From contig NZ_NJFZ01000005.1 of assembly GCF_002270355.1 (NCBI RefSeq), forward strand, positions 248,001 through 312,000: a stretch of 64,000 nucleotides of DNA, read 5' to 3'. The stretch comes from Flectobacillus sp. BAB-3569. GTDB lineage: Bacteria; Bacteroidota; Bacteroidia; Cytophagales; Spirosomataceae. Made by a program: the position numbers and the translations under genes. This document shows positions 4,913 to 27,832 of the stretch, piece after piece. The notes beneath the pieces were generated by a model, which made no database searches, was not told where the DNA came from, and saw only the letters and a program-made list of their open reading frames with translations. Every line of letters starts with the position of its first letter. Position 1 is the stretch's first letter.

Positions 4913-5488
4913 TTATGATTTATGTGGCTCGCTAAATCTCTTAATTTGTGTAGGAACTTTATCCACAGCTTTTTCAATAATTGAAGGAGCAAATGGTTTT
5001 ACAATAGGTAATAAATAGTAAGGACCTTTCTCGTTTTTGGGAGGAATTTGCACTCCAATCGCCGAGCCAAGCCACAGAATGATACTAATCCCAAAAGCCC
5101 AAGTCATTCCACCAACCAAAGCACCTACTAAGGAATCAAATTGCCCCAATACAGTAGCTTTAATAGATTTGCGGAGTACCCAGCCCAATTTATTAATCAG
5201 ATAAACAATCGGGAAAAATACTGCTCCAAAACCAACATAAGGTAATACCCTATCGGTTACCTTGCTGGTCATGTAAGGCGATAGCCAATCAGATGCAACA
5301 CCTAGGGTTTTGAAGCCAATAATGACAGAAATGATAAAAGCCAATATAGAAATTACTTCTATGATAATTCCTCGTTGGTAGCCAATAAAAGCTCCCCACA
5401 GAATTGGAAGAAGTATAAAAATATCAATGACTTTCACAGAATAGAAGGTTGAAAAACTGTTGATTTTGAGTAAATCTATCAAAATCAA
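4913..5488 (-). CDS. CvpA family membrane protein
   Basis: A 191-residue inner-membrane protein of the CvpA family (named after colicin V production; actual role linked to envelope homeostasis and still unclear). Four hydrophobic segments are visible: about 22-38, 45-62, 85-105 and 120-146. The Gly-rich GAFIGYQRGIIIEV at the first segment and LVGALVGGMTWAFG at the fourth are family hallmarks. An alternative GTG start at 5437 would give the more typical N-terminus VKVIDIFILLP, and I cannot decide between them. It is followed 20 bases after the stop of the upstream yqeY-like gene, so the two are likely co-transcribed. Confidence 0.8.
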   Translation of the reverse strand: MILIDLLKINSFSTFYSVKVIDIFILLPILWGAFIGYQRGIIIEVISILAFIISVIIGFKTLGVASDWLSPYMTSKVTDRVLPYVGFGAVFFPIVYLINKLGWVLRKSIKATVLGQFDSLVGALVGGMTWAFGISIILWLGSAIGVQIPPKNEKGPYYLLPIVKPFAPSIIEKAVDKVPTQIKRFSEPHKS

Positions 5489-6310: not shown

Positions 6311-7036
6311 ATGACTAAACTTAGTGTAAATATCAACAAGATTGCTACCATTCGTAACTCAAGAGGTGGCAACAATCCTAATGTGGTTAAAGTCGCTATG
6401 GACTGCGAGCGCTTTGGTGCAGAAGGTATTACAGTACACCCTCGTCCTGACGAGCGCCATATTCGTTATCAGGATGTATATGATTTGAAAGAAATCGTCA
6501 CCACCGAGTTCAATATCGAAGGTAACCCTACCGAAGGCAAGTTTGTAGAGTTGGTATTAGCTACCAAACCCACGCAAGTAACCCTTGTGCCTGATGCGCT
6601 TGGCGCTATTACATCAAATGCAGGATGGGATACCATTACGCATAAAAGTCGCTTGCAAGATTTAATTGCGATGTTTAAGGAAGCAGGTATTCGTACATCA
6701 ATTTTTGTGGATGCCGACGAGCGTATGGTTGAAGGAGCCAAAGAAACAGGTACAGACCGCATTGAGCTTTATACCGAGCCTTATGCTGAACATTACCTAC
6801 AAAACCGTGAAGCTGCGATTAAAGATTTTATCAGTGCTGCCAAAGTGGCGAATCAATTAGGACTGGGCATCAATGCTGGACATGACTTGAGTTTGGAAAA
6901 CCTTCGCTACTTCCAACAAAATATTCCTAACCTTTTAGAAGTGTCTATTGGTCATGCATTAGTATGCGATGCGCTCTATTATGGACTCGAAAATACGGTA
7001 CAATTGTATCTAAGAGAGACAAAGGCGGTAGATTAA
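6311..7036 (+). CDS. pdxJ: pyridoxine 5'-phosphate synthase PdxJ
   Basis: A 241-residue TIM-barrel enzyme that condenses 3-amino-2-oxopropyl phosphate with 1-deoxyxylulose 5-phosphate to give pyridoxine 5'-phosphate, the ring-closing step of DXP-dependent vitamin B6 synthesis. The N-terminus ([20 protein letters not shown]), the phosphate/substrate motif [12 protein letters not shown] and the C-terminal [16 protein letters not shown] with its conserved His match the family. I place the start at the ATG at 6311 and not at 6218, because the extra 31 residues upstream do not belong to the family and the shorter form has the usual length. It is monocistronic with a strong terminator right behind it. 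Confidence 0.96.
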
Positions 7037-7040
7037 AAAG

Positions 7041-7070
7041 ATGGTGTCAGAATTCAACTGACACCATTTT
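7041..7070 (+). terminator. pdxJ terminator
   Basis: Perfect 10-bp stem ATGGTGTCAG (7041-7050) and CTGACACCAT (7058-7067) followed by T-rich sequence, five bases after the pdxJ stop. Confidence 0.85.
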
Positions 7071-7127
7071 CATTTAACATTAATTTTCGGCAACTGTCAA
7101 ATAAATACATATTTCATCCATTGACTT

Positions 7128-7158
7128 TTGTCAATATATGTCACGACAGATAAATTTG
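7128..7158 (+). promoter_or_regulatory. Bacteroidetes-type promoter of the candidate small RNA
   Basis: TTG at 7128-7130, 20 bases, then a perfect TAAATTTG at 7151-7158. This matches the phylum's -33/-7 consensus (TTG and TAnnTTTG). No protein gene follows on this strand for over 860 bases. Confidence 0.65.
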
Positions 7159-7164
7159 TAATTA

Positions 7165-7319
7165 CTAAATAACTAATCACAAATGTATTGGACCAACTTA
7201 CTTAGTGGCGGCTGAGTAAAGGGTAATTAAAATTGATACAACTTCTGACAAACTAAACAAACTCATTGTACAAAGTGGCGGCTTTGGACGATAGTGTTCT
7301 GTCTTGTCAGAAGTTTTTT
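7165..7319 (+). ncRNA. candidate small RNA with two identical GTGGCGGC hairpin loops
   Basis: About 155 nt between a good promoter and an intrinsic-type end. First hairpin: TTACTTA (7198-7204), loop GTGGCGGC (7205-7212), TGAGTAA (7213-7219). Second hairpin: CAAA (7271-7274), the same loop GTGGCGGC (7275-7282), TTTG (7283-7286). A 12-bp perfect outer stem pairs AACTTCTGACAA (7240-7251) with TTGTCAGAAGTT (7304-7315), and T's follow at once, so the outer stem encloses the second hairpin and acts as terminator. There is no open reading frame of note. Function unknown; I do not recognise an Rfam family. The stems differ while the loop is identical, which speaks for a functional loop. Confidence 0.6.
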
Positions 7320-7681
7320 TATATCTCCTTATCGCCAAGCATTTCTTGTCCTTGTACGACTACTTTTATTCCAACAACGAGCCCATCTTTTCTGATAAAA
7401 AATACAGCAGCTCCGTAATTCGCTTCCTCAAATTCATCATCTTGTTTTTTGCTCAATTTAGTTTCAGGATAATCTCCTGCCAAAGCCACCAATGAGCCAT
7501 TTTTATAATAAATCTTGATTTTAGGAATCTGATCATTGGCTTGCATTTTATAATTCCCAAAGTAGTCTTTGAAGCTCAATGAGTCGGCCTGTACTGAAAT
7601 AGTCTGAGGAATAGTGATGTCAGATGACTGAGCTGTAGGCTGTCCCACCGAAAGCAGTGAAGCGATAAGTAAATGATGCAT
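7319..7681 (-). CDS. small exported protein, DUF3471-like
   Basis: A 120-residue protein with a short hydrophobic leader (MHHLLIASLLSVGQPTAQS). The body reads like a small beta-sandwich: F-GNYKM, then IKIYYKNGSLVALAGDYPETKL, and a C-terminal strand with AAVFFIRKDG. This pattern resembles the DUF3471 type domain often attached to beta-lactamase-fold proteins, here standing alone. That is a resemblance by eye. The gene stops exactly where the small RNA on the other strand ends, so the two are convergent. Function unknown. Confidence 0.6.
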   Translation of the reverse strand: MHHLLIASLLSVGQPTAQSSDITIPQTISVQADSLSFKDYFGNYKMQANDQIPKIKIYYKNGSLVALAGDYPETKLSKKQDDEFEEANYGAAVFFIRKDGLVVGIKVVVQGQEMLGDKEI

Positions 7682-27636: not shown

Positions 27637-27648
27637 CAGTCACAATCA

Positions 27649-27729
27649 CAAAAAAGGGGTGCCTCATAACAACGGGCTGAGATTATACCCATTGAACCTG
27701 ATACAGGTAATGCTGTCGAAGGGATTTTG
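27649..27729 (+). ncRNA. TPP riboswitch (THI element)
   Basis: All invariant blocks of the thiamin pyrophosphate aptamer are present in order: GGGGTGCC (27656-27663), CTGAGA (27677-27682), ACCC (27687-27690), GAACCTGAT (27694-27702), GGTAAT (27706-27711) and GAAGGGA (27718-27724). P1 closes between CAAAA (27649-27653) and TTTTG (27725-27729). Downstream, GACAGG (27804-27809) can pair with CCTGTC (27824-27829), a hairpin that ends four bases before the ATG at 27833 and could be the expression platform acting on translation. Binding of TPP should switch the receptor off. Confidence 0.93.
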
Positions 27730-27832
27730 ATGATAGATCGTGGTACAATCTTTCTATCATTCAATCAATCAATTTTTTACGGGTTATTATTATTGTTAAA
27801 TCGGACAGGATTTGGCTCCTTTACCTGTCGTT

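Follow-up and report, generated by a model that had tools for sequence, protein, structure and literature searches.

The interval considered here lies in a 64-kb stretch of Flectobacillus DNA, which, as a whole, we call the window. On the upstream side of the interval is a plus-strand open reading frame (ORF; 6311–7036) that we take to be pdxJ, as named in the initial annotation. On its downstream side is a convergent, minus-strand ORF (7319–7681) encoding a small, DUF3471-like protein of 120 amino acids (Pfam DUF3471, E 8.3e-6; its 26.6 bits fall short of the curated cut-off, 29.3). The ORF coordinates bear out the initial placement of a candidate small RNA in the gap between pdxJ and a convergent gene. 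A ten-pair inverted repeat at 7041–7067, behind pdxJ, is probably the pdxJ terminator. A search for tRNA and tmRNA genes returned none in the interval. Elsewhere in the window, a TPP riboswitch is present at 27645–27741 (Rfam RF00059, 67.3 bits).

Judged from its sequence, the interval most likely encodes a stand-alone, intrinsically terminated, regulatory small RNA (sRNA) of ~155 nt. Specifically, a putative plus-strand promoter (7128–7158) consists of a -33 TTG element at 7128–7130, a 20-nt spacer, and a -7 box, TAAATTTG, at 7151–7158. Between the promoter boxes lies a dyad, TATATGT-N4-ACAGATA (7135–7152), which, on the basis of the sequence and of homologous promoters, is a candidate operator. 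We infer that the RNA starts near 7164. The 5′ leader of the predicted plus-strand RNA, CTAAATAACTAATCACAA (7165–7182), is single stranded and conserved in the homologous rows, and could possibly function as a second seed. Two hairpins follow. SL1 (7198–7219) possesses an 8-bp stem, UUACUUAG/CUGAGUAA, in which 7198–7205 pair with 7212–7219, including one G-U pair, and it displays the loop GUGGCGGC at 7205–7212. SL2 (7240–7320), the putative intrinsic terminator, displays the same loop apically at 7275–7282. The SL2 tip, CAAAG/CUUUG, pairs 7271–7275 with 7282–7286, and the 12-bp base stem, AACTTCTGACAA/TTGTCAGAAGTT, pairs 7240–7251 with 7304–7315 and is followed by T's to 7320. The elements on which the initial annotation drew, namely a dedicated promoter, two hairpins with unlike stems and an identical 8-nt loop, and a 12-bp closing stem followed by T's, are all present in the sequence.

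The predicted RNA (7165–7322) folds at -43.4 kcal/mol with a z-score of -4.93, a stability equaled by none of 200 shuffles. A sigma-70 scan of the interval yields two promoter-like sites versus 1.9 in shuffles, and a terminator rule specifying an uninterrupted stem and a loop of 3–8 does not list the SL2 terminator. The loop 8-mer, GTGGCGGC, occurs just twice in the window, at 7205–7212 and at 7275–7282, with 0.58 copies expected. Because at least two copies arise in 7 of 100 shuffles, the loop repeat alone is weak evidence. As judged by sequence comparison, the twin-loop arrangement exceeds chance, and the decisive support is comparative, coming from homologs, stem covariation, and a census of the 8-mer.

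To locate homologs, we used the convergent DUF3471-like gene as an anchor and inspected the sequence on its 3′ side. The RNA, hereafter locus A, lies beside this gene in 14 genomes, the window's included, belonging to four genera: five Flectobacillus, seven Arcicella (g57), and one genome each from genera g28 (G031) and g5 (G008). In G012 and G013, the convergent gene is present and its 3′ flank lacks the RNA. The convergent gene is the positional partner of the RNA: pdxJ adjoins the RNA in the window and in G003, as it does in G008 to judge by the last pdxJ codons, and is not adjacent to it in G004 or in Arcicella aurantiaca (G076). In blastn searches of 59 relatives and 150 family genomes, convincing matches were confined to the window's genus (four other genomes); weaker matches outside of the genus, among those inspected, were judged to be promoter-like, coding, or chance, and distant blastn searches and plasmid records gave no match to the RNA. 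A covariance model, of the kind proposed in the initial annotation, built from three sequences pointed to A. aurantiaca with an E-value of 0.0075, which is weak alone because the locus's own minus-strand matches reach 0.025, and synteny confirmed the homolog. Families of this kind can thus escape plain similarity searches: blastn went no further than the genus, and the Arcicella copies were recovered only with a structure model and a neighboring-gene anchor. A twin-loop pattern applied order-wide matched 8 of 390 genomes, three of them Flectobacillus; the other five look like coding sequence. In the record NZ_JAAALB010000010.1, whose title names Cellulophaga sp. BC115SP, the locus A RNA is present in its Flectobacillus version. 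The corresponding genome, G002, clusters with the window's genus, so the Cellulophaga label looks wrong.

Across the 14 genomes, the SL2 loop GTGGCGGC is kept in 12 (all except G004 and G126) and the SL1 loop in nine (all except G004, G008, G031, G061, and G134), with the stems rewritten. Both GUGGCGGC loops are present in eight genomes and at least one is present in 13. Genome G004 retains the promoter, the leader, and the terminator and has neither loop. There are 13 distinct homologous promoter rows, as those of Flectobacillus longus (G001) and G002 are alike. The -7 box, TAnnTTTG, is found in 11 of the 13 (missing in G031 and G008), the -33 TTG in 12 (missing in G008), and TGT-N4-ACA between the boxes in 10; the longer form TATNTGTN4ACANATA is present at locus A in all five Flectobacillus genomes examined. 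The leader is recognizable, with changes, in 12 of the 13 rows (not in G031). We considered whether the promoter dyad marks a regulon. It occurs at 2–5 places per genome compared to 1–2 for the reversed pattern, and because we saw no promoter in common at the other places, we claim no regulon. When folded at full length, nine of the 13 rows give z-scores between -3.6 and -8.6; eight of these nine carry loops, and every one of their 15 loops is apical. G061, G031, G134, and G126, which were folded only to an early T-run, give z-scores of -1.4 to -2.5.

The initial annotation proposed a candidate sRNA with a repeated loop, and the comparison gives good support to an sRNA whose repeated loop is functional: promoter, leader, and loops persist, and compensatory substitutions alter the stems. 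Covariation was assessed with 48 distinct loop hairpins (of 52) drawn from all loci, including the additional ones described below. Stem cells pair in 82.2% of cases versus 52.0% in shuffled sets, the covariation score is 0.717 versus 0.198, and doubly changed stem cells number 149 versus 56. None of 500 shuffles reaches any of these three values, and the prediction that the stems are conserved through compensatory change, whose failure the initial annotation would have counted as a refutation, is upheld on these three of five measures. On a fourth measure, further pair types, 6 of 500 shuffles do as well as the real hairpins, and a fifth, pairs changed on both sides, is uninformative, being reached by 475 of 500. 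When the register is slid, the covariation score is at most 0.233. The shuffles overstate significance because orthologous rows are included, yet the stems are unrelated between loci. With the three nearest sequences only, the test carries no information (161 of 500 shuffles). At the level of sequence, this analysis shows one loop shared by variable, covarying stems.

The additional loci came from searches for AAGCCGCCAC in 12 genomes and for the loop followed by a T-run in 222 family genomes. These searches uncovered further intergenic hairpins that carry the loop GUGGCGGC on stems unrelated between loci. Because loops outside of locus A were found via a search for GTGGCGGC, loop invariance there exists by construction; loci C and D, moreover, were chosen from pattern matches for their hairpin-like look. 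The unbiased evidence consists of locus A, which is gene-anchored, and two complete censuses of the 8-mer. Locus B, which presumably lies between an amidohydrolase gene and glgB, carries three GTGGCGGC loops in G000, G001, and G003. The window's own genome carries the predicted three-loop RNA B on contig C48 (L228), with loops at 2896, 2960, and 3064, the last on a terminator-like hairpin. We read locus C in seven genomes, three of which have the exact -7 box; its neighbors are presumably genes for a LytTR regulator and an acyltransferase. Locus D, presumably flanked by eutC and the gene for a DtxR/MntR-type regulator, was examined in six Arcicella genomes, and the box TATTTTTG is present in all of them. 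Loci C and D are short, consisting of a small hairpin and then the loop-bearing terminator. At locus E of F. longus, we see a promoter box together with a long terminator-like hairpin whose tip displays the loop; this locus resides ~75 nt upstream of a gene, yet has its own terminator-like hairpin. In representatives of loci A–E, a TAnnTTTG box lies 29–65 nt upstream of the first loop. By sequence, a promoter together with an intrinsic terminator is predicted at locus A, in 7/7 rows of locus D, 3/7 of locus C, and 2/2 of locus B. The loci are syntenic across species.

The loop-plus-terminator pattern was counted in genera g1, g57, g28, g5, g31, and g16, with sites bearing a long T-run counted more than once. 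It matches 60 times versus 18 for the control in 15 genomes of g1, g57, g28, and g5, 37 versus 66 times in 13 g31 genomes, and 39 versus 28 times in nine g16 genomes. A second short motif, CATGTA, occurs upstream of the loops in 5 of 17 rows, those of loci B, C, D, E, and J (L228, L234, L235, L254, and L349, respectively), relative to a background frequency in noncoding DNA of 0.03 per 200 nt. Loci B, C, D, and E each have one representative in which it is located 53–78 nt upstream of the -7 box; J lacks such a box. In the second species examined, loci B, C, and D have CGTGTA or TATGTA instead. CATGTA is possibly a shared activator site, and we offer it as a lead only. At locus C in some Arcicella, a different dyad, TTATC-N4-GATAA, occupies the place corresponding to that of the locus A dyad. 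Finally, on the minus strand of A. aurantiaca L368, loop stretches at 4936/4974 and at 1199 adjoin two similar-looking genes, presumably of the TPR type, as if the RNA and the gene had been duplicated together.

Complete censuses remove the selection inherent in searching for the loop. Throughout this study, coding status and gene starts were assigned from ORFs, and most of the genomes are drafts. F. longus harbors 53 copies of GTGGCGGC, 47 coding and six noncoding. The noncoding copies belong to locus A (two), locus B (three), and locus E (one), and each can be drawn as the loop of a hairpin; the least stable of these hairpins has -6.1 kcal/mol. A. aurantiaca harbors 73 copies, 58 coding and 15 noncoding. 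When the 8-mer is forced into a loop, the median hairpin energies are -11.3 for noncoding versus -3.9 for coding copies in F. longus (p 6e-4) and -14.2 versus -2.5 in A. aurantiaca (p 4e-4). At or below -8 kcal/mol are 5/6 noncoding and 11/47 coding copies in F. longus and 9/15 and 9/58, respectively, in A. aurantiaca. The other six A. aurantiaca noncoding copies comprise three weaker hairpins, one of which is the locus A SL2 that is apical in the full-length fold, and three (K, N, and the second J copy) with no hairpin within +/-28 nt. Over eight stem positions, the 21 noncoding copies from the two genomes pair at 78.6% versus 45.1% when shuffled (maximum of 2000 shuffles, 57.7%); the 105 coding copies pair at 37.7%, and a control set of 2033 noncoding G(N6)C sequences pairs at 41.6%. 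Seven or eight of the eight positions are paired in 10 of the 21 noncoding copies versus 2.4% of the G(N6)C controls. The same loop on unrelated hairpins in related water bacteria points to a regulatory RNA family with one shared working part, and our reading is that the loci encode sibling sRNAs.

Since the loop is what the RNAs have in common, it is most likely what a partner reads. We propose that the locus A RNA is one of several sibling sRNAs, otherwise unrelated, that occur in Flectobacillus, Arcicella, and two neighboring genera. Each sRNA would display GUGGCGGC, a UGGCGG hexaloop closed by a G-C pair, on between one and three hairpins, of which the terminator is often one. The loop would be the active part, and the stems would only display it. 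The loops would act in trans through loop-first base-pairing with CCGCCA or the full complement, GCCGCCAC, just upstream of start codons, and pairing there would block translation. Several loop copies per RNA would provide redundancy, as do the UCCC motifs of LhrC. For Bacteroidota, which make little use of Shine–Dalgarno pairing, post-transcriptional control is, to our knowledge, little known outside of Bacteroides.

Base-pairing with mRNAs is suggested by modest evidence in one genus. In a post hoc test with starts predicted from ORFs and with locus N left out of the count, CCGCCA and CGCCAC, both sub-words of GCCGCCAC, occur four and three times, respectively, upstream of 136 A. aurantiaca starts. 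They rank first and second of the 30 permutations of CCCCGA; without CCGCCA, the remaining 29 permutations average 0.34, and TGGCGG does not occur. At locus N, a noncoding copy without a hairpin, the full GCCGCCAC lies in the leader of a predicted gene and ends 14 nt before the ATG. In 256 mixed-clade starts, CCGCCA is present in 2.7% versus 0.8% of internal coding windows. CCGCCA and TGGCGG are equally frequent, with two occurrences each, in 81 genes from other Arcicella, and among 603 starts across loci, many from outside of the clade, they occur eight and four times, respectively. One of 12 F. longus genes with a sense-strand GCCGCCAC has it in the first 30 nt. No target-site conservation was found among the sites comparable between species: CCGCCA precedes an NRAMP gene in G088 and not in four other orthologs examined, a linked kinase gene in G088 and not in G061, and a LytTR gene in G031 and not in four others. 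The check for words complementary to the loop near start codons, which the initial annotation proposed, gives a modest excess of sub-words in A. aurantiaca and none in Flectobacillus, in which CCGCCA is absent upstream of 192 starts. That absence, along with identical loops present one, two, or three per RNA on unrelated stems with nothing else in common, is what one would expect under the main rival hypothesis: an RNA-binding protein recognizes the G-C-closed UGGCGG hexaloop, and the sibling RNAs are decoys that titrate it in the manner of CsrB/RsmZ. The protein hypothesis is countered by the over-representation of complementary words before A. aurantiaca starts, and loop hairpins in mRNA leaders, the expected regulated sites, look few. 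Weighing the A. aurantiaca excess, the Flectobacillus absence, and the non-conserved sites, we tentatively favor sibling sRNAs that act by loop base-pairing at mRNA starts, giving that reading almost an even chance, and we regard a protein partner as a serious contender, albeit a somewhat doubtful one.

Other explanations were also weighed. The motif could mark 3′ ends, for processing, stability, or termination, with no role in trans, and indeed each of loci A, B, C, D, and E has a terminator-like hairpin that carries the loop. We consider this explanation unlikely because internal hairpins also carry the loop (SL1 of locus A and two of the three in locus B), promoter boxes lie directly upstream of A, of D, and of C in 3/7 genomes, and the six noncoding copies of F. 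longus are too few for most of its terminators to carry the loop. That the copies are a repeated DNA element or chance hairpins could be argued from their occurrence several times per genome and from the A. aurantiaca noncoding copies that lack a local hairpin. This notion we judge very improbable given that the copies have only 8 nt in common, the stems are unrelated between loci and covary, the loci are syntenic across species, and controls pair at the background rate. We also rejected a short peptide gene as highly improbable: a 10-codon frame (ATG TAT TGG ACC AAC TTA CTT AGT GGC GGC TGA) spans loop 1 in the window, but in F. longus it has no ATG and a stop just upstream, and what is conserved is the stems rather than codons.

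The multi-locus loop family lay outside the view of the initial annotation, and the larger result lies outside the window. It may be, although we would not yet call it probable, that a clade of Bacteroidota possesses a global post-transcriptional system built on one 8-nt loop, GUGGCGGC, that has arisen on many unrelated sRNAs and that has one common partner, either a new CsrA-like loop-binding protein or mRNAs with CCGCCA next to the start codon. If so, unrelated sRNAs with only an 8-nt loop in common would offer a way to search for a global RNA partner: the loop itself could serve as bait in a pull-down, and the loci tell where to look.

Comparison to known systems began with Rfam release 15 at curated cut-offs, which gave no match at the interval, either in the window scan or in an E-value scan of 7030–7400, and none in seven loci (L074, L228, L232, L235, L254, L368, and L349). 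Our search of the literature on Flectobacillus and Arcicella small RNAs, the GUGGCGGC motif, sibling sRNAs, and RbpB/FopS, in which few subscription journals were covered, returned no description of the loop family among the matches listed. The Csr motif is GGA, and CsrB and RsmZ titrate CsrA/RsmA. The present RNAs resemble those regulators in having several hairpins, one short loop motif, and otherwise little conservation; they differ in that the loop GUGGCGGC contains no GGA. In the Listeria monocytogenes LhrC family, a CU-rich UCCC motif binds upstream of the start codon, in the Shine–Dalgarno region (PMC4132741). Similar to LhrC, the locus A RNA repeats an identical motif in an internal loop and in the terminator loop and belongs to a multi-locus set of sRNAs, a likeness of design and not of membership. 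In contrast to the UCCC/CUCCC loops of LhrC, both window loops are the G-rich GUGGCGGC, and, from one of our loci to the next, stems and backbones show no relation. Sequence comparison with LhrC was by Rfam scans. In Bacteroides thetaiotaomicron, 14 paralogous FopS/GibS sRNAs use a shared seed to pair with translation initiation regions (PMC11697453). Like the present loci, these are multi-member sRNAs of Bacteroidota, but the FopS sRNAs have extended primary sequence in common, whereas the loci here share only the 8-nt loop. The best FopS (RF04319) match in the interval scan scores 16.9 bits against a cut-off of 56 and falls on the minus strand at 7032–7108, in a different hairpin, the one behind pdxJ, which places the RNA outside of that family. 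By the features tested, the locus A RNA is none of LhrC, FopS, or CsrB.
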